Source of the DNA: an uncultured Arachnia sp.
Lineage (GTDB): Bacteria > Actinomycetota > Actinomycetes > Propionibacteriales > Propionibacteriaceae
Assembly (NCBI GenBank): GCA_947499145.1
Contig: CANMNB010000020.1
Span: 1 to 36,487, forward strand
DNA: 36,487 bases
Direction of reading: 5' to 3'
The notes below the pieces were generated by a model. The model was not told where the DNA came from, searched no databases, and worked only from the letters and a program-made list of their open reading frames with translations. Position numbers and translations under genes: made by a program. Positions 6,684 through 34,339 of this stretch are shown here, piece by piece. How positions within the stretch are numbered: position 1 is the first letter of the stretch; each line of letters opens with the position of its first letter.

Positions 6684-6752
6684 CGCCACCAATCTCTGGC
6701 TATTTGGAGCCCGTAAGCGCACCATGGAGTCAACGGCCAACGATTGGTGGTG
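6684..6752 (+). promoter_or_regulatory. Long-range inverted repeat that would cover the next gene's ribosome binding site
   Basis: CCACCAATC (6686-6694) is the exact reverse complement of GATTGGTGG (6742-6750), and C6684/G6752 extend the pairing past a G-T wobble. The right arm is the only purine-rich stretch before the ATG at 6758, so pairing would hide the ribosome binding site. The intervening loop is 47 bases. Confidence 0.3.
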
Positions 6753-6757
6753 ACGTC

Positions 6758-8356
6758 ATGTCAACCCGGAATCGAGCGCCTGGAAGAGCGATCGTCTCGC
6801 GTCTCCTGGTAGGCGTTCTTGTTCTCATCGCATCGTTCACAGGAACGCGCGCTGAAGCCGCGGACCTCTTCGGCCACGACGTGTCGTGGCCCCAGTGCCC
6901 AGCCCCCGAGGGCTATGGCTTGCCCATGCCTCCGTCGGATACCAAGTTTGTGATCATCGGTCTGACCAAGGGTCTGGCGTTCACCAGGAATCCGTGCCTG
7001 CAGAGCCAGGTGGAGTGGGCCACGTCCCGGTCCAAGCCGACCCAGGCGTACGGAATGGCCACGTATCCGACGGCAGCCCAGCTGACGCAGTACGGCGCGA
7101 GTGGTCCGTGGCGCACGACGACCTTGGCCGGTCGGCTCAGCAACGTCGGCTATGCGGAGGCCAAGTACTCGGTGGCCTACATGCAGTCCATCGGGTGGAA
7201 GCCGCCGGTCGTGTGGATCGACGTCGAGCCGCGCCCGGCCCAACCGTGGCCCGGCGGCACGGCAGCCAAGCGGGCACTCAACCGTGCGGTCATCGACGGG
7301 TTCATGCGAGGTCTCTCAGAGTCCGGGTACAGCTACGGCATCTACTCGTACACGAATGGCTGGAATGAGATCGTCGGCAACTGGAAGCTGCCCACCGTCC
7401 CGGTCTGGGCGACTGCCGGGCGCCTGGACTACCCCACCGAAGCCCTGGATCGTTGCACGCAACCGAGTTTCTCCGGTGGACGGGTGCTCATCTCGCAGTG
7501 GTACGACGACACCCGCGACTACAACCGGACGTGCGGCACGTACCAGTTCACGTCGTTCTCGCGACCGCTGCCACCCACCACCGGCTTCGGCAACGACATG
7601 AACGGGGACTGGAGGAACGACATCATCACCCGTTCCCCGGATGGACGCCTCTGGCGCCTACCGGGAAACGAGCGCGGCCAGTTCCTGGCCCGGGAGCAGA
7701 TAGGCCGGAGTTGGGGGGTCATGAACCTCATCGAGACAGTCGGTGACGTCAGCGGAGACGGCAAGAGCGACTTCATCGCACGTGAAGCGCGGACCGGAGC
7801 CCTCTACCTGTACGTGGGATACGGGTACGGCGGAGGATCGCGCAGCCAGATCGGGCGCCACTGGAACTCCATGGCGGCCATCGCGGGCGTGGGTGACTTC
7901 AACGGGGACGGCAGGGTGGATCTCGTCGCCGTCCAGCGCAACACGGGGGAGCTCTGGCTGTACAAGGGAAACTCGTTCGGCGGGCTGTCCCGGCAGAGGA
8001 TCGGCACAGGTTGGGGGGTCATGGACCTCCTGGTCTCCGCCGGGGACTTCAACAGCGACGGTAACCCCGACCTCATCGCCCGGGACGGGCGGTACGGCTC
8101 CCTGTGGCTGTATCCCGGTGATGGCCGGGGCAGCCTGGGGCTGCGGTCCCGCATCGGCAGGGGCTGGGAGGTCATGGACATGATCACGGGGCCTGGCGAC
8201 GTGACAGGCGACCGGATACCCGACTTGGTGGCGCGCACCCGTGGCACCGGTCAACTCTGGGTGTACCCCGGCAATGGGAGCGGAACCCATGCGGCTCGTT
8301 CGCTGCTGCCCCGACCGGAGGGCATCTCCTGGCTCAGCTACGACGCGATCGCCTGA
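6758..8356 (+). CDS. Secreted GH25-like/DUF1906-like protein with FG-GAP repeats
   Basis: A 532-residue exported protein. The signal peptide (about residues 1-35) is basic, then hydrophobic (LLVGVLVLIASF), and ends at an AEA-A site. Residues 36-285 resemble the GH25 lysozyme-like or DUF1906 glycosidase fold, with a GHDVSWPQCP start, a WIDVEPRP strand carrying the candidate acidic residues, and YGIYSYTNGW. From about residue 290 there are five blade-like repeats about 50 residues apart, four with GD(V/F)(S/N/T)xDxxxD calcium-loop motifs. Each ends in a LW.Y(P/K)G strand and an IG..W..M linker, as in FG-GAP/VCBS propellers. The start at 6758 was chosen because it begins the signal peptide. It may cleave peptidoglycan or another wall glycan while docked through the propeller. 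Confidence 0.82.
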   Translation: MSTRNRAPGRAIVSRLLVGVLVLIASFTGTRAEAADLFGHDVSWPQCPAPEGYGLPMPPSDTKFVIIGLTKGLAFTRNPCLQSQVEWATSRSKPTQAYGMATYPTAAQLTQYGASGPWRTTTLAGRLSNVGYAEAKYSVAYMQSIGWKPPVVWIDVEPRPAQPWPGGTAAKRALNRAVIDGFMRGLSESGYSYGIYSYTNGWNEIVGNWKLPTVPVWATAGRLDYPTEALDRCTQPSFSGGRVLISQWYDDTRDYNRTCGTYQFTSFSRPLPPTTGFGNDMNGDWRNDIITRSPDGRLWRLPGNERGQFLAREQIGRSWGVMNLIETVGDVSGDGKSDFIAREARTGALYLYVGYGYGGGSRSQIGRHWNSMAAIAGVGDFNGDGRVDLVAVQRNTGELWLYKGNSFGGLSRQRIGTGWGVMDLLVSAGDFNSDGNPDLIARDGRYGSLWLYPGDGRGSLGLRSRIGRGWEVMDMITGPGDVTGDRIPDLVARTRGTGQLWVYPGNGSGTHAARSLLPRPEGISWLSYDAIA

Positions 8357-8364
8357 TCGGGCGC

Positions 8365-10104
8365 CTACTCCACGTGGTCCCATCGTCCGGTGGGAGGCAA
8401 CGACAGGGGACGAAAACCGATATCCGGGTCGAACAGCAAGCGGGCCAGCGGCTCATCACCGAGTCCGTGCACGGCGATCCTGATCGTCCCTTGTGACCCC
8501 AGGCTCACATCCACATCATCGCGTGTGGAGATGGAGGTGAGGAAACCCACGTGCCTCCCCCGCTTGGCCCACCTCAGGCAGAAGGCCGGGGAGTGGGGGG
8601 CTTCGGGGGTGGGTGCCCAGCCGGCCATCGGGTCCTCCGAACCGCGGTGGCTGACTCCTTCGTCGATGGGAAGGTACTGCTTGATGTGGACCGTCCCGTG
8701 CGGGTCGGTGAGGACGGAGCCGCTGTGATCCGCTGCCATGGCCACGTCGTCGAAGGTGGCGCCGAACTGCCAGGTCTGGTGAGCGCGAACGACGGCGGAC
8801 GCCCTCACCTCGTCCCGGACCAGCAGGATGTCCAGGTGCGGCAGGAAGGCGATGGACCGGGTCCGTACCGTGTCCCGGTAAGGGACTCCCGTGAGGTGGA
8901 GGAGGTGGAGTTCGTGGGAGGGGTCGCGCCCCGTGATCACGGTGTGCTCCCTCAGGTCCGTGCCGCGCTTCCAGTCGAAGGGTCCGGCGCCGGTCAGGGA
9001 GACAACCGAGTGGGACACCTCGCTCAGCTCGTAGCTCCGCCGCACCTTGTCCGAATAGCCGCTGAAGCCGGGATCCTCGAGCACGGGACGTCCGTGCGTG
9101 TACCACAGGATCGATGTGTGGTCGCGGTGTCCGTGGATGCGTCGGTAGGTGCCGTAGCGGACCGTGAGGTGGGACTCCTCGGCGGCTGGGCGGTTCTCGC
9201 CCCACCCGGAACGGATGAACGCCCACCCGTCGTCGTAGATCATCTGGCGAGAAGCGGGCGGAGGGGTGGGCGAGTCGGGACCGCGCCAATAGGCAAGATC
9301 GTCGGCGACGTCGGTGGAGGGCTGTCGAAGCATCGAGTCTCCCACCTGCACGACGTAGCCGTCCGGCCGGGTGGCCCAGAGCAGGAAGCCGGGGATGTGG
9401 TTGCGGCGGTGGAGTGCAGCGCTGATGGGAAGACCAGCCGCTGACAGTTCAGCGATGGCGAGTCCCAGCTGCTTGTGGATGTAGACGGCGTAGTGCGGCG
9501 CCTGCTCGGCGACCACCCCTTGCGCGTCGACGTACGCAACGGCGGCTTCGTCCAGCCTGGCGCTGGCCACCGCCCCTAGCGACGGGTCGTCGAGCGCCCG
9601 GGCTGCCCTCAGGAGGGCGATGTTCTGGTCCAGCCCGTGGTTCCATGCGCCCTCGTAGTTCTCGTCTCGCGAGAGGTGGTCAGCGTGCAGGCGCAGGCTC
9701 TCCCGCACGGCGTCGTCGGTGGCGAACCCGGCGGAGAAGAGGTACGCGAGCAGGCCGGTGCGCAGACCGGTCGCGTGTCCGTGCCATGCGGGGGAGTCGT
9801 CCGGTGTCCCGCAGGCACGGATCCAGCGCAGGGCCAGCTCGCGGGCCTTTGTAGCGTAGGCGGGATCCCCTGTGGAGCGGTAGGTCTCCGTGAGCGTGTT
9901 GAGGAATGTCAGGCTGTGGAACCGGAAGGCCGCCGTGGACTCGTCAGTGAAGTAGCGCCAGTGCGCGTCCTCGGCCAAGGACACGGGCTCAAGCCCGGGT
10001 TCGCTGTACACGTCTGCCATGAGGAGCGGAACATGGTGGTTGCGGGCGACCTTGTTGGAGGGCTCCCAACCGGGATGCTCGGTGTCTCGGGAGGGGAGCG
10101 TCAC
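8365..10104 (-). CDS. Heparinase II/III-like protein of the glycan operon
   Basis: A 579-residue protein with no signal peptide. The N-terminal half is an alpha-helical toroid (HGHATGLRTGLLAYL, NYEGAWNHGLDQNIALL, QAPHYAVYIHKQ). The C-terminal half is the beta-sandwich of heparinase II/III-like proteins, with the marker region RIHGHRDHTSILWYTHGRPV then EDPGFSGY. The GTG at 10104 is preceded by GGAGG at the right distance and overlaps the stop of the upstream glycosyltransferase (GTGA). An upstream in-frame extension would lie inside that gene and is rejected. In polysaccharide-synthesis clusters, such proteins act as lyases that trim or remodel the nascent glycan. Here the predicted uronic acid (ManNAcA) would be a fitting target for a beta-elimination enzyme, but this is inference. 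Confidence 0.82.
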   Translation of the reverse strand: MTLPSRDTEHPGWEPSNKVARNHHVPLLMADVYSEPGLEPVSLAEDAHWRYFTDESTAAFRFHSLTFLNTLTETYRSTGDPAYATKARELALRWIRACGTPDDSPAWHGHATGLRTGLLAYLFSAGFATDDAVRESLRLHADHLSRDENYEGAWNHGLDQNIALLRAARALDDPSLGAVASARLDEAAVAYVDAQGVVAEQAPHYAVYIHKQLGLAIAELSAAGLPISAALHRRNHIPGFLLWATRPDGYVVQVGDSMLRQPSTDVADDLAYWRGPDSPTPPPASRQMIYDDGWAFIRSGWGENRPAAEESHLTVRYGTYRRIHGHRDHTSILWYTHGRPVLEDPGFSGYSDKVRRSYELSEVSHSVVSLTGAGPFDWKRGTDLREHTVITGRDPSHELHLLHLTGVPYRDTVRTRSIAFLPHLDILLVRDEVRASAVVRAHQTWQFGATFDDVAMAADHSGSVLTDPHGTVHIKQYLPIDEGVSHRGSEDPMAGWAPTPEAPHSPAFCLRWAKRGRHVGFLTSISTRDDVDVSLGSQGTIRIAVHGLGDEPLARLLFDPDIGFRPLSLPPTGRWDHVE

Positions 10105-12272
10105 GTGGTACCTCCGATGGGTGCGGAGCCCAGGATGTGGGTCATCCAGAGGTCGGCGATGCGAGCTGTGTCGAAAGCTGCTGCGTCCTTCTTGATCAAC
10201 GCGGTTCTCCGTCGATGGTCCGACGCGTCCTGGGTGGCGCTGAGCACGCACTGTGCCATCGAGTCGATGTCGGCGAAGAGGTACTCGTCGCCGAAGATCT
10301 TGTCGACGCCATCACGAGGCCAGAACAAGGGCAGTGCGCCGGACGCCATCCCTTCAGCGGGAGCCAGGTGGAAGCTCTCGTGCGTCGACGGTGATACCAC
10401 CCATCCGATTCTGCGGAGCCAGTTGGCCATGTCAGGGGAGAACGGGGCGAAGACCACCTTCTCCGACAGCCCGGGAGTCCGTCCGATCCTCGAGAAGAAG
10501 TCCAGATAGGGTTCGCGCTCCGCCGGCTTGGCCCAGATCCATGGGTACTCCCACGGCATCCTGCCCTTGATGTGGAGCGAGAACCGGTCGTCCTCGCGCA
10601 GGAGTGCCTCGAGCAGGTCGAGTGCCCGGTCGGGGCGCTTCAGGAAGGGGACGATCCCGACGAGGCCCAGCGTGTACTCGGCGCCGGGGTGTTTGGGTCG
10701 GTCCAGGTCCACCGCGTCCAAGGAGTTCGGGATGTGGTGGATCCTGTCGCATGGCCAGGGCTTGGTCTCCGCCACGAGCTCCTGGTAGTAGCGGGACACC
10801 GTGATCAGGGCGTCGACGTTGTCGATGTCGATGGTGTCGATCCACGGGGCGGTGAGTTCGAACCTGTGGAGCCGCACGAGCAGGCGCTGGTCGGGGCGCT
10901 TGCGCTGCGAGTACCAGACCGCGTTGTGGCCGGCCCACTCGCACACGATGACGTCGGCCCACTCCAGCAAGGTCTGGGAGGCATCGGCATCGTGTTCCCG
11001 CAGCGCCGCCCACCGGTCGATTCGCAGCTCGACGTCCGGCCGTGTCTCGAGGATGTCGATGAGTTCCCCGGCGAACTTCAGGTCGTGCCCGGCGACCACC
11101 ACCCTGACAGGCTGCCCGCGGCGGGGGAAGGCTGCCAGGTTGGGCTCGGCCCGCTGGAAGTACCCCTCGAAGCGCCGGGCCGTGGCGGTGCCAGAGTAGG
11201 GAAGGACGGATTGCTGGGCGCGGCGCCGGATCAGGGGCAGGTGGTCTCGGGCCGCGAGCAGGGCGGTGATGACGCTGTCGACATCGTCCTCCACGAGCAG
11301 CGGGTAGTCCGATCCCAGCAGGGCCTCGTGCGCCGGGGTGCGGTTGACGAGCGGGGGAGTGCCTGCCGCCGCGTACTCCAGCAGCTTCGTCGAGATCTCG
11401 AGGCTGGTGTCGAGGGCCGTTGAGCGCCAGCTGAGCCCCACGTCGTGGGCGGCTACTTCCTCCAACGCCCGTTCGCGTGGGAGCCCCCCCTTCCAGGAGA
11501 CGCCCGTCCCGGGCGACTCGAGGGCAGTCCGCATGGCCGTGACCCAGGCGGCGTCGTTGGACTGGAACTTGTCCCCCAGCATGGTGAGCGAGGCGTTGAG
11601 GCCCCGTCGCTCGAGCTGCTCCGGCAGGGAGGTGATCTCCAGGGTGCGCCAATCGGGGTGGAGCTTCCCTGAGTAGACCAGACGCAGCTCCCGCTGGGGC
11701 TCCTCCGCCGAATCGAGGTCCACGAAGAACTCGTCCGGAACGATGGGCGTCATCAGGAGGCACTTGCCGGCGGCCTCGGGAACGATCGACTCGACGTACT
11801 CCCGGGTCTCCTCCGTCTGCACCAGCAGACGCCGGGAGTGCCCGGCGATCCGCCGCATTCGCGCCAGCTGCACATCGCTCACGAGGGTGACGGGGAAGGG
11901 GAAATCGGTCACGTAGCTCCACAGCCTGGGCGCCAGCACGGTGGACGAGCTGCAGGCCTCGGCCAGTTGGCTGCCTCGGACGATGACGACCGATGCGTCC
12001 ACTTCGCGGGCGACGTCCTCCAGCCGGGCCACGGCCTCGGCCGGGCTCATGGCGGGGGAATCCTCCGCCGTGGCGGCAGGATGCACCACGACGTTCGGCA
12101 CGTCAGTGATGCGGGTGAGCAACCGGTCGGTGGTGATGTGGGCCTTGAGTACCACGTGGACCGTCGAGCGGGTCAGCGCGAGTGTCTCCGCCAGGGAGAC
12201 GAGCCAGATGGCCGAGCCGTCGATGATGTTGAGGTTCACATCGCCGTAGATGACGACGTCGCGCCGCGTCAC
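10101..12272 (-). CDS. Tandem-module glycosyltransferase (two GT-B units)
   Basis: A 723-residue protein that looks like two GT4-type glycosyltransferases in one chain. Module 1 (about residues 1-375) begins VVIYGDVNLNIIDGSAIW and has LRLVYSGKLHPDWRTLE and a nucleotide-sugar-binding segment (TKLLEYAAAGTPPLV). Module 2 (about 380-723) begins VRVVVAGHDLKFAGELI and has YTLGLVGIVPFLKRPDRAL. It has an EX7E motif in STHESFHLAPAEGMASG. Module 2 is a paralogue of the C-terminal domain of the 963-residue protein at 26025-28916. The GTG start overlaps the stop of the upstream membrane-protein gene (GTGA), and its own stop overlaps the heparinase-like gene. It is likely cytosolic and adds two successive sugars; donors are unknown. 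Confidence 0.85.
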   Translation of the reverse strand: MTRRDVVIYGDVNLNIIDGSAIWLVSLAETLALTRSTVHVVLKAHITTDRLLTRITDVPNVVVHPAATAEDSPAMSPAEAVARLEDVAREVDASVVIVRGSQLAEACSSSTVLAPRLWSYVTDFPFPVTLVSDVQLARMRRIAGHSRRLLVQTEETREYVESIVPEAAGKCLLMTPIVPDEFFVDLDSAEEPQRELRLVYSGKLHPDWRTLEITSLPEQLERRGLNASLTMLGDKFQSNDAAWVTAMRTALESPGTGVSWKGGLPRERALEEVAAHDVGLSWRSTALDTSLEISTKLLEYAAAGTPPLVNRTPAHEALLGSDYPLLVEDDVDSVITALLAARDHLPLIRRRAQQSVLPYSGTATARRFEGYFQRAEPNLAAFPRRGQPVRVVVAGHDLKFAGELIDILETRPDVELRIDRWAALREHDADASQTLLEWADVIVCEWAGHNAVWYSQRKRPDQRLLVRLHRFELTAPWIDTIDIDNVDALITVSRYYQELVAETKPWPCDRIHHIPNSLDAVDLDRPKHPGAEYTLGLVGIVPFLKRPDRALDLLEALLREDDRFSLHIKGRMPWEYPWIWAKPAEREPYLDFFSRIGRTPGLSEKVVFAPFSPDMANWLRRIGWVVSPSTHESFHLAPAEGMASGALPLFWPRDGVDKIFGDEYLFADIDSMAQCVLSATQDASDHRRRTALIKKDAAAFDTARIADLWMTHILGSAPIGGTT

Positions 12273-13119: not shown

Positions 13120-14346
13120 TCAACGCCACAAGCCTCGGCTGTCAATCACGACCTTGCCCTCCACGCGGGTCTTGGGTACGGACGTGAACGCGTCGTGGTC
13201 CACAAGGACGACGATCACGTCGGCCTCATCCAGGGCGGGATCGAGCTCACAGAGGGTGAGGTTCGAGCGTCCGCGGAGGCTCGTCGGGAGTTCGCTGACG
13301 TGTGGCTCGACGGCCAGGACTCGGGCCTGGGGGAGGCCCTCGGCCAGGTCTCGGGTGATCGCCAGCGCGGGGGACTCGCGGAGGTCGTCGATGTTGGGCT
13401 TGAAGGCGAGTCCGAGCGTGGCGATGGTGGGGGCGTCGATCCCCTGCACGGCGCGGCGCACCCGCTCGATGACGTGGCCGGGCTTGCTGTCGTTGACCTC
13501 ACGGGCGGTGCGGATCAGCCGGGCCTCCTCCGGCGCCGCTGCCACGATGAACCAGGGGTCCACGGCGATGCAGTGGCCGCCCACCCCTGGTCCGGGTTGC
13601 AGGATGTTGACCCGGGGGTGGTGGTTGGCGAGCTCGATGAGCTCCCAGACGTCGATGCCCAACCTCTCACAGATGATGGACAGCTCGTTCGCGAAGGCGA
13701 TGTTCACGTCCCGGTAGCTGTTCTCCACCAGCTTGGCCATCTCCGCGGTGCTGGCGTCGGTGAGGAGGATCTCGCCGCGGCAGAAGGTGCGGTACAACTC
13801 GGCGGCCGCCTGGGCGGACTCCGGGGTGAGTCCTCCCACGATGCGGTCGTTCTCCACGAGCTCCGTCATGACGCGCCCCGGCAGCACCCGTTCGGGGCAG
13901 TGGGCGAACTTGAGCGCAGCGCCGGCCAGGTCGGGTCGCTCCTCGAGCACGGTGTCCGCCATGTGCTGCGTCGCCCCCGGCGGGGAGGTGGATTCCAGGA
14001 CCAGCAGCTCGTCGCCCCTGAGGTAGGGGGCGACGGCGCGGGCTGCGGATTCGATGTAGGAGAGATCGGCACTCTTGTCCTCGCGGAAGGGTGTCGGGAC
14101 CGCGATGATGAAGGCGTCCGCCTCGGCGGGAGTCAGCTGGGCGTGCAAGAGGTTGCTTTGAAGCGCGCGCAGGATGTAGGTCTCCAGGTCCGGCTCCACG
14201 AACGGGACGCGACCCTGGTTGATCGCGTCGACCGAGCTCTGCTTGACATCGACCCCGATGACCGAAAGACCGTGGCTGGCCAGGATGGCCGCGGTGGGCA
14301 GCCCGATGTAACCGAGCCCGACGACGCAGACCTGTGAGATTCTCAT
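13120..14346 (-). CDS. wecC: UDP-N-acetyl-D-mannosamine dehydrogenase (nucleotide-sugar 6-dehydrogenase)
   Basis: A 408-residue cytosolic enzyme that oxidises C6 of a UDP-HexNAc twice with NAD+, giving the uronic acid. The NAD-binding Rossmann motif is VVGLGYIGLPTAA at residues 8-20. ESTSPPGAT is at 118-126, the conserved lysine K205 is in TAEMAKLVENSYRD, and the catalytic cysteine C259 is in GPGVGGHCIAVDPWF. FKPNIDDLRESPAL marks the UDP-binding domain. The TP-F-REDKSADLSY segment and the WecC-like core favour UDP-ManNAc over UDP-Glc as substrate, and a wecB-type epimerase lies 4 kb away. A GAAAGG ribosome binding site precedes the ATG. First gene of a four-gene minus-strand operon. UDP-GlcNAc dehydrogenase (WbpA-like) is the main alternative. 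Confidence 0.9.
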   Translation of the reverse strand: MRISQVCVVGLGYIGLPTAAILASHGLSVIGVDVKQSSVDAINQGRVPFVEPDLETYILRALQSNLLHAQLTPAEADAFIIAVPTPFREDKSADLSYIESAARAVAPYLRGDELLVLESTSPPGATQHMADTVLEERPDLAGAALKFAHCPERVLPGRVMTELVENDRIVGGLTPESAQAAAELYRTFCRGEILLTDASTAEMAKLVENSYRDVNIAFANELSIICERLGIDVWELIELANHHPRVNILQPGPGVGGHCIAVDPWFIVAAAPEEARLIRTAREVNDSKPGHVIERVRRAVQGIDAPTIATLGLAFKPNIDDLRESPALAITRDLAEGLPQARVLAVEPHVSELPTSLRGRSNLTLCELDPALDEADVIVVLVDHDAFTSVPKTRVEGKVVIDSRGLWR

Positions 14347-14601: not shown

Positions 14602-14639
14602 CAAACCCAGAGTCTCCATTTCAGGAGAAAGGAACCAGC

Positions 14640-16556
14640 ATGAACCTTAAGGTTCGTAATCGTTTCGCTGTCGCGGCGGTCGGTGCTCTTGCCTGCTCGC
14701 TCGCTTCAGCTCCGCTCGCCTCCGCAGCACCCGACGCCGAGGGCAGCACCTCGGACGAAGGTGACGGCCTCTCCATCGTCACCGGGGATTACCACGGCCG
14801 CATCTCCGGCCAGAGCCGCTTCGGCACCGCCGTGGCAGCGTCCAAGGCAGCCGAGGACATCGGCAACACCGTCATCCTGGCCAATTCCACCGCGTGGTCG
14901 GACACCTTGGCCGCCACGCCGCTGGCTGACATCCTCGACGCGCCCGTGTTGTACACGTACCGGGACAAGCTGGAGGACGTGACGATCGCAGAGCTGCAGC
15001 GCCTCCAGGACGAGGGCGTGACCGATGTCGTGCTCGTCGGTGGCGAACTCGTGATCCAGCCTGCCGTCGCGGCGCAGCTCGCTGCCATGGGCTTCACTGT
15101 CGATCGTATCGGCGGCACCAGCCGGTACGACACCGCGCTCCTGCTCGCGGCGGAAGCCGTGGACTACTACGAGGACGGTATCGGCCACCTCGCTTCGGAC
15201 CGCGCTGAAATTGCCCAGCTGAAGGCTCTGGAGGCCGCGTTCCAGGCTACTCTCGCCAAGTGGGAAGCAGCTCGCGGCGTCACGGACGCCCGTTTCAACG
15301 ATGTCCTTTCGGCCCAGGAGGTCCTGGACGAGCTGAATGCTGACCTGGCCGAAGCCACCGAGGCCATCCAGACCGTGCCGTCGGTCGTCATTCCGGGCGT
15401 GGGCACGGTGGACAGCCTCGACGCCTACAACAACCTCCTCGCGCTGTGGCAGAACCGTGCCTCCAACGCCACCACCCTCCAGGCGTTCGTGGCCGACCGT
15501 CTGGTCGAGTACGTTGCTGTCAACTCGGAGGACTTCCAGGACGACTCGTGGAACGACGATGTCGTGCCGTTCTTCGGCGCCACCGAGTTCTCGATCACGC
15601 TCAAGACCGGCGCCGGCGAACCGGTGACCTACACCGGCACGCTGACGGAGCTCCAGGCCCAGATCCTGCTGCTGGACTGGTCTGTCGACCTGTTCGGTGA
15701 TGCCGACACCGTGAAGATGGTCCAGGAGGACCTCGAAAACGAAGTGGACTTCTCCAACGGGCAGGCAGCCTCGGTGCGCGACAGCTACGCACAGATCGTG
15801 CAGCGCATCCAGGAGCGCCTGGAAGCCCAGGAGAACAACGCGGCCCTGATGGCGGAGATCCGTGCCATCCAGGACGACATCGACGACGCCGAAGTGGCGC
15901 TGGACGACGCCGTTGAGGCCTTCGACGAGGCAAACGCTGCCGAAGCTGTCGCCAAGGCCGCGTTCCTGGAAGCGGCTGAGGAGCGTCCCGATGGTGAGCG
16001 GATGTCCCACTCGCAGCTTGAGTACGAGACCACCCTCGCTGGTGTCATCGACGACGGGACGAAGTACCCGGCCTTCCTGGCCACCGGTCTGGACTTCCCG
16101 GACGCTCTCGCCGCCGGCCCTGCTGCCGCTGCCGAGACCGGCGTGATCCTGCTGACCCGTGGTACCGCCGTCCCGGACGCCACCCAGCGTTACCTTGACG
16201 AGGACCCGAACACCGTCGCTGTCGGTGGCCCCGCCGCCGCGGCCGTTGAAGCGGATGTCGAGTACGTTGGCTACTCTCGTTACGAGACCGCCACCGAGAT
16301 CGCCGCCGCGTACTTCAACGATCCGAGCTACGTGGGCCTCGCCTCCGGTGCTGTCGCAGCGGACGCAGTGATTGGTGGTGCCCTCATGGCCAACGTGGAC
16401 GGCACCCTGGTGCTGACGCGTCACAATGCCCTCCCGGACACCACGCGCGACTTCCTCTCCTACGAGGTGGATGAGCCGCACCTGGTTGTCTTCGGTGGCC
16501 CGCTGGCCATTTCCGAGGCTGCCGAGCAGGCAGCTGTGGAGGCTCTGGGGAACTGA
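14640..16556 (+). CDS. Secreted CWB2-repeat wall-binding protein with a large internal insertion
   Basis: A 638-residue exported protein. The signal peptide is residues 1 to about 30 (ASAPLASAA-PDAE). The C-terminal and N-terminal parts form three cell-wall-binding type 2 repeats (PF04122-like). Repeat 1 is residues 54-152 (RISGQSRFGTAVAAS to LVGGELVI). Repeat 2 starts at 156 (DRIGGTSRYDTALLLA), is interrupted at about 179 and resumes at about 474-538 (FLATGLDFPDALAAGP to VAVGGPAA). Repeat 3 is 541-638 (YSRYETATEIAAAYF to VVFGGPLAI). The insertion is acidic and mostly coiled coil. Codon choice is less GC-extreme than in neighbouring genes, and the gene has a strong ribosome binding site and terminator, all fitting a highly expressed surface protein. 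In Clostridioides difficile three CWB2 modules anchor surface proteins by binding an anionic polymer; the same role is inferred here. Confidence 0.88.
   Translation: MNLKVRNRFAVAAVGALACSLASAPLASAAPDAEGSTSDEGDGLSIVTGDYHGRISGQSRFGTAVAASKAAEDIGNTVILANSTAWSDTLAATPLADILDAPVLYTYRDKLEDVTIAELQRLQDEGVTDVVLVGGELVIQPAVAAQLAAMGFTVDRIGGTSRYDTALLLAAEAVDYYEDGIGHLASDRAEIAQLKALEAAFQATLAKWEAARGVTDARFNDVLSAQEVLDELNADLAEATEAIQTVPSVVIPGVGTVDSLDAYNNLLALWQNRASNATTLQAFVADRLVEYVAVNSEDFQDDSWNDDVVPFFGATEFSITLKTGAGEPVTYTGTLTELQAQILLLDWSVDLFGDADTVKMVQEDLENEVDFSNGQAASVRDSYAQIVQRIQERLEAQENNAALMAEIRAIQDDIDDAEVALDDAVEAFDEANAAEAVAKAAFLEAAEERPDGERMSHSQLEYETTLAGVIDDGTKYPAFLATGLDFPDALAAGPAAAAETGVILLTRGTAVPDATQRYLDEDPNTVAVGGPAAAAVEADVEYVGYSRYETATEIAAAYFNDPSYVGLASGAVAADAVIGGALMANVDGTLVLTRHNALPDTTRDFLSYEVDEPHLVVFGGPLAISEAAEQAAVEALGN
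15174..16058 (+). other. Coiled-coil insertion domain within CWB2 repeat 2
   Basis: Residues about 179-473 of the CWB2 protein. Helical heptad-like stretches at about 185-245 (QLKALEAAFQATLAKWEAAR) and 375-450 (QIVQRIQERLEAQENNAALM) flank a mixed segment at about 246-370 with a VIPGVGTVDSLDAYN turn and beta-prone ATEFSITLKTGAGEPVTYTG. The two long helices could pair as an antiparallel stalk that carries the middle part away from the wall. No named domain recognised. Confidence 0.7.
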
Positions 16557-16592: not shown

Positions 16593-16636
16593 CAACAGGA
16601 AGGCCCCGGCGGGAAACCGTCGGGGCCTTCCTGTTG
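16593..16636. terminator. Strong hairpin terminator after the CWB2 gene
   Basis: CAACAGGAAGGCCCCG (16593-16608) is perfectly complementary to CGGGGCCTTCCTGTTG (16621-16636). The stem continues inward through a G-T wobble and three more pairs to a GAAA-type loop, about 20 pairs in all. There is no long T-tract, as is usual in actinobacteria. It may stop transcription from both sides. Confidence 0.9.
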
Positions 16637-18241: not shown

Positions 18242-19390
18242 ATGAAGAAGGTTATGGTCATCTACGGGACCCGCCCCGAGGCCGTGAAAATGGCTCCCCT
18301 TGTCCGGGCTCTAGGGGAGTCCGACACCCTGCGCCCGGTGGTGGTGAGCACCGGCCAGCACCGCGAGATGCTGGACCAGGTCAACCACTGGTTCGGCGTC
18401 ACCCCGGACATCGACCTGGAGGTGTTCCGTGACGGGCAGTCCCTCACGGCGCTGGCGGCCCGCATCCTGGACGGGCTGCCGCACGTGGTCGACGAGGTCC
18501 GGCCCGACGCCGTGGTGGTCCAGGGCGACACCACGACGGTCGCCATGGCGGCCATTTGCTGCTTCTACCAGCAGGTCCCCGTCGTGCACCTGGAGGCCGG
18601 ACTCCGCTCGGGTGACATCCACTCCCCGTTCCCGGAGGAGGCCAACCGCAAACTGGCCGGGCAGGTCACCGCGCTTCACTTGGCGCCCACCGCCGCCGCC
18701 CGCGACAACCTGCTGCGCGAGGCGGTCGACGCCACCACCGTGACCGTGACCGGCAACACCGTCATCGATGCCCTGAACTGGACGGCCGAACAGCCGGTCG
18801 CGTTCGAGGATCCACGGCTGGCCGAGGCCCAGGCCGCCGGGCGCCGCATGGTGCTGTTGACCACCCATCGTCGCGAGAACTGGGGCGAGCCGATGGAGCG
18901 CATCGGCCGGGCGGTCGCGGAGCTGGCGGGACGGTTCCCCGATCACCTGATCGTGTTCCCGGCCCACCTCAACCCGCGAGTGCGCGCCGCCGTCGAGCCG
19001 GCGGTGGAGGGCCTGGCGAACGTGCTCGTCGTTGACCCGCTCGACTACCCGCAGTTCGTCCACGCCCAGCGATGGGCCGAGGTCATCCTCACCGACTCCG
19101 GGGGTGTGCAGGAGGAGGCCCCGAGCTTCGGACGGCCGGTGCTGGTGCTGCGCGAGAACACCGAACGCCCCGAGGCCGTGGACGCCGGGACCGTGCGACT
19201 GGTGGGGACCAGCAGCGAGCGGATCGTCGCGGAGACCGCCCGGTTGATCGAGGACCCGGCCGCCTACGAGACGATGAGCCGGGCGGTCAACCCCTACGGC
19301 GACGGGAGGGCGGCCGAACGCTGCGTGGCGGCCATCAGCGAACTGCTCGGCGTCGGGCAGCGCCTCCCCGACTTCACGGTCGCTCCCTGA
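18242..19390 (+). CDS. wecB: UDP-N-acetylglucosamine 2-epimerase (non-hydrolysing)
   Basis: A 382-residue cytosolic enzyme interconverting UDP-GlcNAc and UDP-ManNAc (WecB/MnaA family). It starts MKKVMVIYGTRPEAVKMAP. Catalytic acids by alignment memory with E. coli WecB are D96 (VQGDTTT), E118 (HLEAGLRSGD) and E132 (PFPEEANRK). The TTHRREN histidine and the UDP-binding DSGGVQEEAPSFGRPVLVLR then TERPEA are intact. A GGAAGG ribosome binding site precedes the ATG. With the wecC-type dehydrogenase it completes the route UDP-GlcNAc to UDP-ManNAc to UDP-ManNAcA. The 3' end overlaps the convergent glycosyltransferase gene by 17 bases. Confidence 0.96.
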   Translation: MKKVMVIYGTRPEAVKMAPLVRALGESDTLRPVVVSTGQHREMLDQVNHWFGVTPDIDLEVFRDGQSLTALAARILDGLPHVVDEVRPDAVVVQGDTTTVAMAAICCFYQQVPVVHLEAGLRSGDIHSPFPEEANRKLAGQVTALHLAPTAAARDNLLREAVDATTVTVTGNTVIDALNWTAEQPVAFEDPRLAEAQAAGRRMVLLTTHRRENWGEPMERIGRAVAELAGRFPDHLIVFPAHLNPRVRAAVEPAVEGLANVLVVDPLDYPQFVHAQRWAEVILTDSGGVQEEAPSFGRPVLVLRENTERPEAVDAGTVRLVGTSSERIVAETARLIEDPAAYETMSRAVNPYGDGRAAERCVAAISELLGVGQRLPDFTVAP

Positions 19391-24368: not shown

Positions 24369-25250
24369 GTGATGGGTGACGGCACGGCCGAGTTGCCGTA
24401 CGACCAGGTCTGTGCCCGAGCCACCGCCGCCGGCCTGCGGAAGGTCGGGACGCGACCCCCCTTCCGCGACTATGTGGTCGACCTGTGGACCCGCCGTAAC
24501 TTCCTCTGGGCACTGTCGTCTGCCAAGAGCTTCGCCAAGAACGAAGGACAGCGACTGGGGCAGCTGTGGGCGTTCGTGAACCCGCTGCTCCTCGTGGCCA
24601 CTTACTTCTTCATCTTCGGATACCTGCTCAACACCGGCCGGGGCATCGACAACTTCATCGGCTACCTGACCATCGGGATCATCCTGTTCAGTCTGTCGGC
24701 CTCCACCGTCACCGGTGGGTCGCGTGCCATCCTCAACAACACCGGGCTGGTTCGAGCGCTGCACTTCCCCCGGGCGGTGTTGCCGCTGTCCACCGTGCTG
24801 ACCGAGGCCATCGCCCTGCTGCCCGGTCTGCTGGTGATGGTCGTCGTCCTGCCATTCACGGGTGAGCGGCCCACCTGGTCCTGGCTGCTCTTCCCGGTGG
24901 CGGTGGTCCTGCAGGTCCTGATGCAGGCGGGCCTAGTTCTGATCCTGGCCCGAGTCGTCAACGCCAGCGTTGACCTGTGGAACCTCATCCCAGTGGTGGT
25001 TCGGGTGCTGCGCTATCTCTCGGGGGTGTTCTTCTCCATCTCGGTCGTGACGGCGAACAACGAGGTGTTGGGGGCCATCCTGGAGTACCAGCCGTTCGCG
25101 CTCCAGTTGACCCTCGCGCGACAGGCGCTGATGCACGAGTTCCCGATGGAGCCGCTGGCGTGGGGCGTCGGCTTCTTCTGGGCGCTGCTGTTGCCTGTGG
25201 TGGGTCTGTGGGTCTTCTGGGGAGATGAGGCGAGGTATGGCCGTGGCTGA
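24369..25250 (+). CDS. Polysaccharide ABC exporter, membrane subunit (Wzm/TagG type)
   Basis: A 293-residue ABC-2-type membrane protein. A cytosolic N-terminal region ends in the amphipathic RNFLWALSSAKSFAKNEGQRLGQLW segment typical of O-antigen and teichoic-acid exporters. About six helices follow, at roughly 73-93, 98-115, 133-162, 172-197, 213-233 and 256-285. AILNNTGLVRALHFPRAVLPLSTVL is the conserved cytoplasmic loop that contacts the ATPase. GTG 24369 and ATG 24372 are adjacent possible starts behind GCAGGGG. It overlaps the ATPase gene by 14 bases. It would move a lipid-linked glycan across the membrane. Confidence 0.92.
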   Translation: MMGDGTAELPYDQVCARATAAGLRKVGTRPPFRDYVVDLWTRRNFLWALSSAKSFAKNEGQRLGQLWAFVNPLLLVATYFFIFGYLLNTGRGIDNFIGYLTIGIILFSLSASTVTGGSRAILNNTGLVRALHFPRAVLPLSTVLTEAIALLPGLLVMVVVLPFTGERPTWSWLLFPVAVVLQVLMQAGLVLILARVVNASVDLWNLIPVVVRVLRYLSGVFFSISVVTANNEVLGAILEYQPFALQLTLARQALMHEFPMEPLAWGVGFFWALLLPVVGLWVFWGDEARYGRG

Positions 25251-26028
25251 CCAGAGGGCGGAGGCGGACCCTGCCGTCATTGCCTGGCATGTGAACGTCA
25301 CCTACCAGGTCTACGGGAGCAAGCGGCGTGGCGCAGCGACGGGGCAGAGCGAGAACCTGGCCCTCAAACGACTCCTCCGACGCGACCGCCAGATCGGTTC
25401 GGTGCGCTACGTCGAGGCCGTCAAGGACGTCTCCTTCACCGCGCACCGGGGCGAGTCGATCGGCATCATCGGCAAGAACGGTTCCGGCAAGTCCACCCTG
25501 CTGAGGGCGCTGGCGGGTCTGCTGCCACCGACCACAGGGCACGTCTGGCTGCAGGGTCAAGCCTCGCTCCTGGGCGTCAACGCCGTTCTCCTGAACGAGC
25601 TCAGCGGAGAGCGCAACGTCTACATCGGGGGACAGGCGCTGGGTCTCACGTCGGCCCAGATCCGTGACAAATACGATGACATCGTCGCCCTCGCCGACAT
25701 CGGCGAGGCCATCGACCGCCCGATGTCCACCTACTCGTCGGGTCAGGGGGCAAGGCTCAGGTTCGCGATCTCCACCGCAGCCCGGCCTGACATCCTCATG
25801 ATCGACGAGGCCCTGGCCACGGGTGACGCTGCGTTCAAGGAGAAGTCGCTCGCGAAGATCCGGGAGATCCTCGGCGAGGCCAGCACGGTCTTCCTCGTCT
25901 CCCATTCGAACAGCACCATCAGGGACATGTGCTCCCGGGCGCTCTGGCTGGACGAGGGCAGGCTGGTGATGGACGGGCCCGCAGAGGACGTCGTCTCCCA
26001 ATACTCTCAGGGGAAGGTCCCGGACTAG
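25237..26028 (+). CDS. Polysaccharide ABC exporter, ATPase subunit (Wzt/TagH type)
   Basis: A 263-residue ATPase of the ABCA/TagH-Wzt group. Walker A is GIIGKNGSGKST at residues 77-87. The signature is the modified YSSGQGARL seen in this group. Walker B is ILMIDEALATGD, and the H-loop is LVSHSNSTI. The N-terminal KRLLRRDRQIGSVRYVEAVKDVSF preceding the nucleotide-binding domain is characteristic of polysaccharide exporters. The protein ends about 15 residues after the nucleotide-binding domain, so it lacks the C-terminal carbohydrate-binding domain of O9a-type Wzt. I chose the ATG at 25237 because an AGGCGAGG sits before it. The ATG at 25225 would add four residues. The stop overlaps the convergent glycosyltransferase stop (CTAG). 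Confidence 0.93.
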   Translation: MAVADQRAEADPAVIAWHVNVTYQVYGSKRRGAATGQSENLALKRLLRRDRQIGSVRYVEAVKDVSFTAHRGESIGIIGKNGSGKSTLLRALAGLLPPTTGHVWLQGQASLLGVNAVLLNELSGERNVYIGGQALGLTSAQIRDKYDDIVALADIGEAIDRPMSTYSSGQGARLRFAISTAARPDILMIDEALATGDAAFKEKSLAKIREILGEASTVFLVSHSNSTIRDMCSRALWLDEGRLVMDGPAEDVVSQYSQGKVPD

Positions 26029-30859: not shown

Positions 30860-31801
30860 CTATCCCCCGTCGGAGGTGCCCGGCCACGTGAGACAGCGAC
30901 CGGAGGTGAATTCGCGACGGGCACCGTCGACCGGATCGTGGAAGCTCAGTCGGTGAGCCAGGAGCTGCATCGGGGTGGAGAAGTCGTCGACGTCGACGGT
31001 CGTGATGACGGGATAGAGGGGATCCCCGGCGAGCGGAAGCCCCAGGGAGTGGAAGTGGGCCCGAATCTGGTGGGTCTTCCCGGTGCGGGGAGTCACCTCG
31101 TACATCGCCCAGGGTGGCCGGGAGTCCAGCAGTTCGATGTCAGTCACGGCATTCGGCGTACCTGGCAGGGTCTCCGCCTGCAGGGTGCCGACCCGCTTGG
31201 TCAGGCGGGACTCGACACGTCGGGGGAACGTGAGGTCGTCCCGGATGGGAGCGATGGCGCGATAGGTTTTCTGTGTCCGCGGGTCGCTGAAGACGGAATG
31301 GTACGCCGCCCGCCACCGCTTCTCGGTGGTCATGAGCAGCACGCCCGCCGTACCGCGGTCCAGTCGGTGCGCCGCTGACAGCTCGGGGAGGTCCAGCAGC
31401 TGACGGGCCTTCACCACCACGCTCTGCAGCACATGGCGGCCGCGGGGGATGGAGGACAGGAAGTGGGGCTTGTCGATGACGACGATCCGCTCGTCCTGGT
31501 GCAGGATGACGATCTCTCCCGGCACGGGCGGCTCGTCGCGCAACTCGCGGTGGAACCAGACGAACGTGTGCGGACGGTACGGCTCCTCGCCGCTCCACGG
31601 GTGACCGTGTTGATCGACGAACTCACCTCGAGCGAGCATCCCGTCCACCGCTTCTCGTGCCGGACCGATCTTGGCGAACAGGAAGTCGCGCATCGTGGCC
31701 CACGGCATCGGGACGTCGGGGTCTCGGTCGGGTGTGCGTACCCAAGCAGCCTGCAGGCCATGGCGGGGAGGGAGCGGCGATTTCGGGGGCACGTCTCCCA
31801 T
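30860..31801 (-). CDS. RluA-family pseudouridine synthase
   Basis: A 313-residue RNA-modifying enzyme. Residues 1-95 form an N-terminal extension (MRDFLFAKIGPAREAVDGML, FVDQHGHPW) that resembles an RNA-binding S4-like region. The catalytic domain starts at IVVIDKPHFLSSIPRG, with the catalytic aspartate D148 in AAHRLDRGTAGVLLM. YEVTPRTGKTHQIRAHFHSLGLPLAGDPLYP is the usual C-terminal signature. The ATG at 31801 follows a GGTGG; an open frame upstream crosses the tRNA gene and is not coding. It converts uridine to pseudouridine in rRNA or tRNA; the target site is unknown. Expressed divergently from tRNA-Ser(UGA). Confidence 0.93.
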   Translation of the reverse strand: MGDVPPKSPLPPRHGLQAAWVRTPDRDPDVPMPWATMRDFLFAKIGPAREAVDGMLARGEFVDQHGHPWSGEEPYRPHTFVWFHRELRDEPPVPGEIVILHQDERIVVIDKPHFLSSIPRGRHVLQSVVVKARQLLDLPELSAAHRLDRGTAGVLLMTTEKRWRAAYHSVFSDPRTQKTYRAIAPIRDDLTFPRRVESRLTKRVGTLQAETLPGTPNAVTDIELLDSRPPWAMYEVTPRTGKTHQIRAHFHSLGLPLAGDPLYPVITTVDVDDFSTPMQLLAHRLSFHDPVDGARREFTSGRCLTWPGTSDGG

Positions 31802-31812
31802 TGTCCACCGGA

Positions 31813-31840
31813 TTGCGGCGCGGTGTGCGAGCGCTACGAT
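31813..31840 (+). promoter_or_regulatory. Promoter of tRNA-Ser(UGA)
   Basis: TTGCGG (31813-31818), a 16-base spacer and TACGAT (31835-31840) lie 24 bases before the tRNA. The second tRNA-Ser gene in the window has the same -35 hexamer. Confidence 0.6.
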
Positions 31841-31864
31841 GTGGGGACTGTCCAAGAGGCCAGT

Positions 31865-31949
31865 GGCGAGGTCGCATAGTGGACTAGTGCAGCCGCCTTG
31901 AAAGCGGCCGAGTGGCAACGCTCCGTGGGTTCGAATCCCACCCTCGCCG
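31865..31949 (+). tRNA. tRNA-Ser, anticodon UGA
   Basis: An 85-base gene ending at the discriminator G, without an encoded CCA. The acceptor stem is GGCGAGG/CCTCGCC, the anticodon stem GCCGC/GCGGC with loop CTTGAAA (anticodon TGA). A long class II variable arm (CGAGTGGCAACGCTCCG) and T-arm GTGGG-TTCGAAT-CCCAC follow. The long variable arm plus TGA anticodon make it serine-accepting, reading UCA (and UCN by wobble). Confidence 0.97.
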
Positions 31950-32047
31950 CACTGTGATGTCACCGGTGCCCCTTCTCCACTCCCATGCGACCGGATGACC
32001 ATCTCGCCGCCCCGGGATGTCGCCCTCTGCTGCTGGCTTCTCGTCAG

Positions 32048-32053
32048 TAGGGT
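32048..32053 (+). promoter_or_regulatory. Candidate -10 box (TAGGGT) for a leaderless transcript
   Basis: TAGGGT is followed by six bases and the ATG at 32060. The rest of the 110-base gap after the tRNA shows no other recognisable site. Confidence 0.4.
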
Positions 32054-32059
32054 GCTCCC

Positions 32060-32521
32060 ATGCCCGAGAGTCGCTACGTCCTCAAGCCGCGCCCGCCGAT
32101 CCGGGCCTTCCTGATGGCTGCAGGTGTGAGCATCGTGGGCGCGATGCTCCTGGTTCTCTCCCTGGCCAATGAATGGTCGGCTGTCGTGGGCGTCCTGTCT
32201 GGGTTCCTGCTGGCGCTGGGGGTCGTCGTCGCGGTGCTGGCCCTCGTCATGATGCGTGCCTTGGCCGTGACCGTGACTCTGACGAGCGAGGGCTACGCCA
32301 TCGAAGGCTCCTCCGGGCCCCAGCGGGGCCGCTGGAGCGAGGTGGGGCGGGTCAGCCGGTCGTCCGATGGGTCGATTGTCAACATCTACGACCATGAAGG
32401 CACTCGGCGTCGGCTGGCCTTCGCCAACCCCGCGGATCCGCAGATCGACGACCTCCTCGCCGACGTCGCCCAACGCCTCGATGACTCCCGCGGCTACACC
32501 GGCTATGGGACGGGGTTGTAG
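32060..32521 (+). CDS. Small membrane protein with a PH-like C-terminal domain
   Basis: A 153-residue protein. Two helices lie at about residues 14-35 and 40-66 (FLMAAGVSIVGAMLLVLSLA; GFLLALGVVVAVLALVMM). The C-terminal half (about 70-135) has TVTLTSEGYAIEGSSG, RGRWSEVGRVS and IVNIYDHEGTRRRLAF, a strand-turn pattern like bacterial PH-domain membrane proteins. It is probably leaderless. The last 19 bases overlap the convergent LCP gene. I cannot assign a function; small proteins of this kind are common near actinobacterial tRNA and LCP genes, as I recall. Confidence 0.8.
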   Translation: MPESRYVLKPRPPIRAFLMAAGVSIVGAMLLVLSLANEWSAVVGVLSGFLLALGVVVAVLALVMMRALAVTVTLTSEGYAIEGSSGPQRGRWSEVGRVSRSSDGSIVNIYDHEGTRRRLAFANPADPQIDDLLADVAQRLDDSRGYTGYGTGL

Positions 32522-34143
32522 GCGCAAGCGTCGGTGACTTCCTGGGCGCCGTCCACCAGGACCGGGGCGCTTGTTGACGCCGTATCGTCCGGGTCGGCGG
32601 GGGTCTGGTCCGCGCTCTGCGTTCCCTCAGGCGTGGCGGGGGCGCTCGACGTCGACTCGCCGGTGGGGGCGGGATCGGCGGTATCCGGGCTGGGTTTGAT
32701 CGCGTCGTCAACGGAACGGCGCATCTCGGCGAAATCGGGATTGTTGTAGTCGTAGCCGTTCTTGCCGGGTGTGAACACCAGGCGCTCGATCGTGGCGTCC
32801 TTGACGTCCAGGGACAGGTCGATGAGTGGCTCGAGCGCCTGGCGGGGGATGTCGGTCATCACCATGTCCGACGAGGCCCGTGCAATCGCTTCGTACGACG
32901 TGAGCATGGTCGACGGACTGGCCTGCTTGATGATCGCGTCGATGAGGCAGGACTGGCGCGCCATGCGGTCGTAGTCGCTGGTGGTGGATCGGCTGCGGGC
33001 ATACCACATGGCGTGGTGGCCATCGAGGTGCTGGTCCGGTCCCTGCTCCAGCCAGCCGGTCGGCGGGCGGCCGGAGGTGTCGCCGCCGATGGGGAGGCGT
33101 TGGTTGATGTTGACCGTCACCCCGCCCATCGCGTCGATCAACTCTCGAAGTCCATCGATGTTGAGTAGAACGAAGTAGGCGATCTTGAGACCGGTGATTC
33201 CCTGGACGGCCTGCTTGAGGGCCTCGGCGCCCCGATACGTCTGACCCCTGAACAGGTCGGGACGCCCGGCCTCGACGTGGTTCCAGACGTTGTTGATGAG
33301 GAACTCCCCGGTGCTGCCCTCGCCCCGGAAACCGTCGGGGAACTCCTGCGCCATCTCGGAGCCCGCCGGGAAGGGTGCGTACTGGACGTTGCGCGGGATC
33401 TGGATGAGCGTGGTGTTGCCGGAGTGGGTGTCGATCGAGGCCACCATGATGGTGTCCGTCCGAATTCCCAGCGAGGCATCCCGGCTCTCGGCGCCGTCGC
33501 CACCCAGCAGCAGGATGTTGAGGCGGGGAATCTTCTCCCACGGGTTGGCCGCCTCATGGTCGACAGTGGGCCGGGAGGTGGACTGGATGTCGCCCTCATC
33601 GGCGAAGATCGTCTCCACCAGTTGCTGCTGGTCGAAGGTGTAGCGCGACGCGACGGCGAGCGGTCCGAAGATTCCAAGGCTCAGGACGCCAACCAGCACG
33701 GCGCCGATCAGCTTCCGGGTTGACGTCATCCCGGCCGGGCGCGTCATGAGGTGAGTCACGAGGACCAGTACCACCCAGAACAGCGCGAAAAGGAGCAGGA
33801 CTGTCCTGAGGGTGGCGAGTTGGCTGGTGTTGCCGCTGAAGCCAGCGAAGCGACCCAGGTCGATGGCGGCGGACACAGCCACCCAGAAGAGGCCACCCAC
33901 GACCGTCAGAGGCACCACGACGCCGACGGTTCGAGCCAATCTGTTGCTGGTTCCCAGCAGTCCGATCCCCGGGATCACGGCGCTGGCGACGGTCAGGAGT
34001 AGGCTGCGCCTCAGGCTGCCCCGGCTGCTCCCTCGCGGGGCAGCGCGCCTCGGGTTCCACACCGGCCAGATCTCCTCCGACAATTCCTCGTCAGGGTGGA
34101 CCTCGTGGGCGCGTCGGGGTAGCTTGCGAGCTGACTGGTCCAT
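32503..34143 (-). CDS. LytR-CpsA-Psr (LCP) family glycopolymer transferase
   Basis: A 546-residue membrane enzyme that transfers a lipid-linked glycopolymer to peptidoglycan outside the cell. An acidic, then basic N-terminal region (about 1-47) precedes four predicted helices at about 47-66, 71-92, 111-132 and 143-165, more than the single anchor of classical LCP proteins. The LCP domain (about 205-400) contains LNILLLGGDGAESRD, the conserved RTDTIMVASID with arginine and aspartates, IQIPRNVQ, and WYARSRSTTSDYDRMARQ with the lipid-phosphate-binding arginines. A Pro/Ser/Thr-rich tail (about 490-530) follows. ATG 34143 is behind GGAGGAAGGGG. It is the likely ligase for the glycan exported by the transporter in this window. 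Confidence 0.92.
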   Translation of the reverse strand: MDQSARKLPRRAHEVHPDEELSEEIWPVWNPRRAAPRGSSRGSLRRSLLLTVASAVIPGIGLLGTSNRLARTVGVVVPLTVVGGLFWVAVSAAIDLGRFAGFSGNTSQLATLRTVLLLFALFWVVLVLVTHLMTRPAGMTSTRKLIGAVLVGVLSLGIFGPLAVASRYTFDQQQLVETIFADEGDIQSTSRPTVDHEAANPWEKIPRLNILLLGGDGAESRDASLGIRTDTIMVASIDTHSGNTTLIQIPRNVQYAPFPAGSEMAQEFPDGFRGEGSTGEFLINNVWNHVEAGRPDLFRGQTYRGAEALKQAVQGITGLKIAYFVLLNIDGLRELIDAMGGVTVNINQRLPIGGDTSGRPPTGWLEQGPDQHLDGHHAMWYARSRSTTSDYDRMARQSCLIDAIIKQASPSTMLTSYEAIARASSDMVMTDIPRQALEPLIDLSLDVKDATIERLVFTPGKNGYDYNNPDFAEMRRSVDDAIKPSPDTADPAPTGESTSSAPATPEGTQSADQTPADPDDTASTSAPVLVDGAQEVTDACAYNPVP

Positions 34144-34166
34144 GGCTGCCCCTTCCTCCGCTTCCC

Positions 34167-34197
34167 ATTCTAGAACCATGGGACATTTCAGTCCCAT
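34167..34197 (-). promoter_or_regulatory. LCP gene promoter with an overlapping inverted repeat
   Basis: On the minus strand TAGAAT (34172 to 34167) is a strong -10 about 24 bases before the LCP ATG. ATGGGAC (34178-34184) and GTCCCAT (34191-34197) form a perfect 7-bp inverted repeat with a 6-base spacer. It covers the spacer and the expected -35 position, so a bound repressor would block the promoter, or an activator would replace a weak -35. Confidence 0.55.
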
Positions 34198-34245: not shown

Positions 34246-34339
34246 GGAGGCGTCGCCTAGTCCGGTCTATGGCGCCCGCCTGCTAAGCGGGTTTGGGGCT
34301 TCAACCCCATCGCGGGTTCAAATCCCGCCGCCTCCGCCA
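34246..34339 (+). tRNA. tRNA-Ser, anticodon GCU
   Basis: A 91-base body (34246-34336) plus an encoded CCA (34337-34339). The acceptor stem is GGAGGCG/CGCCTCC, and the anticodon arm CCCGC-CTGCTAA-GCGGG gives anticodon GCT. A long variable arm (TTTGGGGCTTCAACCCCATC) and T-arm GCGGG-TTCAAAT-CCCGC follow. It reads AGC and AGU. The encoded CCA differs from the other tRNA-Ser in the window, which lacks it. Confidence 0.97.

Follow-up and report, generated by a model that had tools for sequence, protein, structure and literature searches.

A CWB2 wall-binding protein of an uncultured Arachnia sp. with a helical insert inside its second repeat

Many Gram-positive surface proteins are held non-covalently on the wall by CWB2 triads, which have been described as closed anchors that other domains precede or follow. 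We analysed a stretch of 36,487 nucleotides from an uncultured Arachnia sp. (contig CANMNB010000020.1 of assembly GCA_947499145.1; hereafter the window), in which one open reading frame (ORF) encodes a protein of this type, P0001, with a large insert inside its second repeat. The ORF was confirmed as first read from the sequence alone (the original prediction; Table 1). In Clostridioides difficile, according to the excerpts of open-access papers on which all citations here draw, anchoring needs three CWB2 repeats with the polysaccharide PSII as the ligand, and the proline of the PILL motif is dispensable (PMC4973711). The triad forms a prism with its base facing the cell wall (PMC8881574). Two conserved surface arginines are proposed as PSII contacts (PMC5817068). 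The original prediction held that known CWB2 proteins carry their effector domains at the ends, which agrees with the placement of other domains before or after the triad in the available text of PMC5842191.

P0001 passes the PF04122 cut-off, has three repeats, the second of them in two parts, and is predicted to adopt the pseudo-threefold triad fold. As far as the excerpts describe them, C. difficile Cwp6 and Cwp8 (PDB 5J72, 5J6Q) resemble it in triad fold, conserved motifs and type, that of a wall-bound surface protein. However, their extra domains lie before or after the triad, whereas no accessory domain was seen outside the triad of P0001, the sole one being inside repeat 2. Unlike C. difficile SlpA, whose SLPH part is solved (PDB 7ACY, 7ACX), P0001 has no recognised SLPL or HID part, and no lattice evidence was found for it. 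It shares CWB2 repeats with ordinary actinobacterial PF04122 proteins, a type to which the second CWB2 protein of this genome also belongs, but a comparable split repeat was flagged in none of the 366 such ORFs examined. The arrangement is real and conserved, and it is a variant within the known type of CWB2 anchor, not a system of a new kind.

The split second repeat and its insert

The hidden Markov model of PF04122 (CW_binding_2), named in the original prediction as a check, matches P0001 with 111.6 bits (E 2.7e-32; curated cut-off 24.9) in four stretches, which fits one full repeat, two halves and another full repeat. We then built a CWB2 profile, 93 positions long, that started from repeats 1 and 3 in the family described below and was iterated over 121 proteins. 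Repeat 2 is split exactly at one boundary of this model, position 21|22, and residues 177–473 separate its halves; the break falls between helix 1 and the next strand, as had been predicted. Taken alone the first half is a weak match (9.0 bits, E 0.012), and the case for a split repeat therefore rests on the complementary coordinates together with conservation and the structural model. The opposite arrangement, in which the insert would be flanked on both sides by complete repeats, was looked for with the profile and rejected, since only complementary halves match and the model closes one triad. A degenerate CWB2 repeat within the insert was also considered and rejected, with a negligible match of 0.3 bits at residues 198–236. 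As the layout is common to 28 proteins from several sources, a sequencing or assembly artefact is unlikely.

Residues 154–178, which contain the first half of repeat 2, are the best conserved segment, with a mean pairwise identity of 0.72, against 0.33–0.38 for the three parts of the insert (n = 18: P0001 and P0003–P0019, with P0002 dropped as a near copy and the short and distant forms compared separately). Five of the six sequence landmarks stand where they had been predicted (VGG at 133, SRYDTA at 161, VGG at 528, SRYETA at 546 and FGG at 618), and the first, SRFGTA, begins at residue 59 rather than 60. The arginine of every SRxxTA-type motif, located at the start of helix 1, is invariant in 28/28 members. 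Each repeat of the 28 members also carries a PILL-like hydrophobic motif (VLY/VLL, VVLL/VILL and LVLT-like), whose leading proline is present in 14/28 members in repeat 1, 0/28 in repeat 2 and 4/28 in repeat 3.

The AlphaFold2 model of P0001 (predicted local distance difference test, pLDDT, 84.3; predicted template modelling score, pTM, 0.64) contains three CWB2 modules, the second built from two distant segments, and one triad closed across the insert, in line with the original prediction. The triad folds from residues 48–179 and 474–638, and it superposes on the solved triads of Cwp6, Cwp8 and SlpA over 288–297 residues at 2.3–2.5 Å. The insert is modelled as a long helical hairpin of about 9 nm with a small mixed tip. 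The expectation of a coiled-coil insert of roughly 295 residues thus held for its length and its helical hairpin, and needs amending at residues about 246–357, where the tip is mixed and includes a beta hairpin. In P0020, the one short form modelled, the tip region is all helical. A motif FQxDxW was counted by eye in the tip of 14 of the 19 long forms.

Searches with the insert gave little. Pfam returned matches below cut-off only (DUF2508, E 0.019; three others, E 0.12–0.26). Residues 179–473 as the query, a search that the original prediction had put forward, found only P0002 among the matches listed, though the full-length search matched P0003–P0019, which share the insert; a limit on candidates is the likely cause, so this narrow result says little on homologues outside the family. 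Enterococcal PrgA (PDB 6Z9L) is a stalked, covalently anchored surface protein, and the match to it is within the tool's range for unrelated helical models. In summary, it is near certain that P0001 is one complete CWB2 triad whose second repeat is interrupted by an insert.

Members, rarity and phylogeny of the split-repeat family

A full-length protein search returned 193 proteins, of which the best 120 were examined. Besides P0001, these included 18 long forms (P0002–P0019), three short forms (P0020–P0022) and one distant form (P0027), and P0027 as the query added five members (P0122–P0126) and one plain triad (P0127), bringing the family to at least 28 proteins with P0001 counted. The insert measures 276–297 residues in all 19 long forms (alignment A1), 215–221 in the three short ones, and in P0027 it has 291. 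In the open-access literature, as far as its excerpts go, no description of a large insert within a repeat of this type was seen; the original prediction knew of no described protein with this layout, and the refinement is that at least 28 proteins have it in common.

To gauge rarity, 394 non-redundant CWB2 ORFs were gathered from 128 proteins and fetched loci, including 59 stretches picked from among the listed matches when 198 genomes of the phylum were searched with PF04122; most of the sample is actinobacterial, it is biased to what searches with P0001 returned, and it is no census. Defining a split as an excess gap of 60 to <500 residues adjoining a truncated repeat, we flagged 25/28 family members (P0018, P0021 and P0122 were missed) versus 0/366 other CWB2 ORFs, a contrast that the profile may favour, being partly trained on the family. 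A stricter test requiring both halves to score found 12/28 members. The largest inserts in other CWB2 proteins were 20–43 residues long, several of them at or near model position 21|22 in the unrelated P0054, L020, L030 and L073, where they appear to mark a permissive loop. A locus search with P0001 alone gave no related loci, and one with alignment A1 gave at least 77 loci, none with an ORF flagged as split by a large insert.

With at most six candidates per genome scored for the taxonomic family and at most three for the order and class draws, a full-length relative was found in 2/39 genomes of the genus (G000 and G035), 2/198 of the family, 2/391 of the order draw and 1/394 of the class draw at E 1e-20. 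P0124 is contained in an ORF of G035 and is the same copy; an end overlap between the G035 contigs C101 and C17 was looked for and none was found. A mobile origin was considered and rejected, as 80% coverage of P0001 was reached in 0/11 plasmid records and 0/4 phage records with any match.

A quick maximum-likelihood tree of 89 rows (midpoint root, poorly filled columns dropped, branch support from the Shimodaira–Hasegawa-like approximate likelihood ratio test only) included at most 61 of 100 plain-type rows, namely the first 60 of the 99 plain triads found and P0127. A branch with support 98 separates the 28 members and P0127 from the other rows. P0127, on a long branch, sits at an unresolved fork within the clade of the 28 members; it may resemble the plain ancestor, have lost an insert, or be wrongly placed. 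Possibly a plain-triad ancestor acquired the insert once, and the insert diversified later.

Possible role of the stalk and tip

We consider it reasonably probable that P0001 is secreted and anchors itself non-covalently to a wall polymer, its middle module displaying a stalk with a variable tip. By its predicted gene content, the surrounding region is a variable surface-glycan island with precursor genes for sugars of the N-acetylmannosaminuronic acid (ManNAcA) type. By analogy with the CWB2 triads that bind PSII in C. difficile, the triad would bind a wall glycopolymer made by this island, which perhaps contains ManNAcA. The stalk probably exits from the face opposite the polymer-binding one, because helix 1 has the SRxxTA arginine at its beginning and the insert at its other end. 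On this topology the stalk would probably point outward from the wall, where its rapidly changing tip would serve as an adhesin or as a head that binds a ligand; we infer the ligand, the direction and the adhesive role alike. The faster divergence of the insert than of the triad would be as expected for an exposed head.

Several observations weigh against this display role. Ligand, localisation or adhesion data for the split-repeat family were looked for and none were found. The pTM of 0.64 leaves the stalk angle open, so that the direction rests on topology, and the triad is acidic (net charge -33), which does not obviously fit an anionic polymer. The polymer genes nearby could be unrelated to P0001, because the backbone of the island occurs in relatives without the family. 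The family is also rare, as the genome counts above show, and the tree needs two state changes because P0127 forks inside the clade, so a single gain is not established. Finally, the codon adaptation of the gene is ordinary, at 0.595 against 0.44–0.71 for the window genes and a mean of 0.73 for a reference set of 18 ORFs, which were selected on length and on GC at the codon positions, some of them being non-ribosomal genes.

The superposition of the triad on SlpA SLPH raises the question of an S-layer-like (surface-layer-like) lattice, in which triads would tile the wall in the manner of C. difficile SlpA, with a second layer of contacts formed by the stalks or tips. In the excerpts available, SlpA tiles via the lateral faces of the CWB2 prism (PMC8881574), and helical arms form lattice contacts in Corynebacterium glutamicum PS2, a protein without a CWB2 anchor (PMC12337289). 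We nevertheless regard a lattice as unlikely, as the ordinary codon adaptation, an indirect sign, lends no support to an S-layer level of expression, a full-length relative occurs in only two of the 39 same-genus genomes, the gene is single copy in its genome, and the SlpA equivalog model of NCBIfam (S-layer_Clost) scores 48.7 bits versus a cut-off of 650. Quite unlikely, too, is a stalk directed into the wall or towards the membrane, acting there as a spacer or a peptidoglycan hydrolase regulator like the helical domains of RipA and PcsB.

That the insert has no specific function, being a tolerated and drifting loop expansion at a permissive site, would fit its low sequence conservation and the small inserts of the four unrelated proteins at or near the same model position, but it seems very improbable: the length stays within 276–297 residues in 19/19 long forms, the two forms modelled, long and short (P0001 and P0020), both retain the helical hairpin, and the tip motif recurs in most long forms. 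The stalk could also be coupled to the anchor, such that binding or pulling at the tip loosens or tightens the grip on the wall, mechanically or allosterically, because the stalk grows from the middle module's helix 1, and the opposite end of this helix bears the arginine that may touch the polymer; we give such regulation only a very slim chance.

The conserved family shows that a stalk of 9 nm can be accommodated in the loop between helix 1 and strand 2 of a CWB2 module. Were this confirmed, the stalk would be a natural marker for the outward-pointing face of the triad, and the loop a possible surface display site. The family also makes it possible to ask, in an environmental actinobacterium, whether non-clostridial CWB2 triads recognise the polymer encoded beside them.

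The gene and its genomic neighbourhood

P0001 looks secreted, with a candidate signal peptide (Table 1) and a helix modelled at residues 3–22, where pLDDT is low. The hairpin downstream has a folding energy of -44.2 kcal/mol (z -8.1), and none of 200 shuffles was as low; a consensus terminator scan of the region was at chance level (1 found versus 0.8 expected). With this hairpin 3' of the gene and the next gene, argG, convergent, the gene is probably a single transcription unit.

Table 1. Features of the P0001 gene and its island, in window positions
Feature	Position	Strand	Basis
Whole gene, CWB2 protein with split second repeat (P0001), 638 aa	14640..16556	+	ORF listing, translation, Pfam
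Purine-rich, ribosome-binding-like stretch just 5' of ATG	14623..14633	+	Read from sequence; putative function
Signal-peptide-like N-terminus, residues 1-30	14640..14729	+	Pattern by eye: positive start, hydrophobic helix, ASAA end
CWB2 repeat 1, residues 54-147	14799..15080	+	Own profile 83.4 bits, positions 1-92 of 93
CWB2 repeat 2, first part (strand and helix 1), residues 156-176	15105..15167	+	Profile positions 1-21, 9.0 bits
Insert between helix 1 and next strand of repeat 2, residues 179-473 (295 aa)	15174..16058	+	Profile, conservation, AlphaFold2 model
Outgoing long stalk helix, residues 183-241 (59 residues, about 88 Å at 1.5 Å per residue)	15186..15362	+	AlphaFold2 model
Tip region, residues about 246-357, helix 260-294 and beta hairpin 317-333	15375..15710	+	AlphaFold2 model, block pLDDT 66-89
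Returning long stalk helix, residues 383-447 (65 residues, about 97 Å)	15786..15980	+	AlphaFold2 model
CWB2 repeat 2, second part, residues 474-535	16059..16244	+	Profile positions 22-85, 60.7 bits
CWB2 repeat 3, residues 543-631	16266..16532	+	Profile positions 3-91, 75.8 bits
20-bp hairpin, terminator-like, between convergent genes	16593..16636	.	Folding energy and shuffles
UDP-N-acetyl-D-mannosamine dehydrogenase (WecC type), divergent neighbour	13120..14346	-	NCBIfam NF008286 576.6 bits, cut-off 459; Pfam
Non-hydrolysing UDP-GlcNAc 2-epimerase (WecB)	18242..19390	+	TIGR00236 450.1 bits, cut-off 210.15
ABC-2 exporter, permease and ATPase, probably of a glycan	24369..26028	+	Pfam
LytR-CpsA-Psr (LCP) glycopolymer transferase	32503..34197	-	Pfam; TIGR00350 74.1 bits, cut-off 62.3

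Besides WecC, WecB, the ABC-2 exporter and LCP, Pfam identifies several glycosyltransferases in the island. In NCBIfam the ABC-2 ATPase is best matched by models named for the export of teichoic acid and of galactan, none of which reaches its cut-off. Five same-genus genomes have a backbone in common with the window (serS, a HAD gene, argG, an alcohol dehydrogenase, a pseudouridine synthase and LCP; 2740–34197), the fetched stretches not each containing every backbone gene, and the surface-glycan cargo between the backbone genes differs among them. Three of these genomes (G006, G016 and G028) have more distant WecB or WecC relatives, at 31–34% identity.

The island also encodes an FG-GAP repeat protein with a signal-like start (6704–8356), a relative of which lies near argG in G028, and, beside glycosyltransferases, a heparinase II/III-like protein (8365–10251), possibly a uronic-acid polymer lyase. 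Two tRNA genes stand on the + strand (31865–31949 and 34246–34336); since the first falls inside the minus-strand ORF 30860–32527, the start of that ORF is probably over-extended.

At the end of the window, positions 36411–36487 are an exact 77-base overlap with the end of another contig of the genome, C21 (10382–10458 of the locus L137), located in the gene of a repeat-bearing surface protein (M15 peptidase, repeated domains). Exact end overlaps of this kind are common for adjacent assembly contigs, which suggests that C21 and the contig of the window are neighbours. A single further CWB2 gene was found in the genome; it lies on C21 (L137 6193–8286), about 22 kb away if they are. Its product, as read by eye, is a glucosaminidase followed by a contiguous, ordinary triad, and its codon adaptation is much lower, at 0.354.
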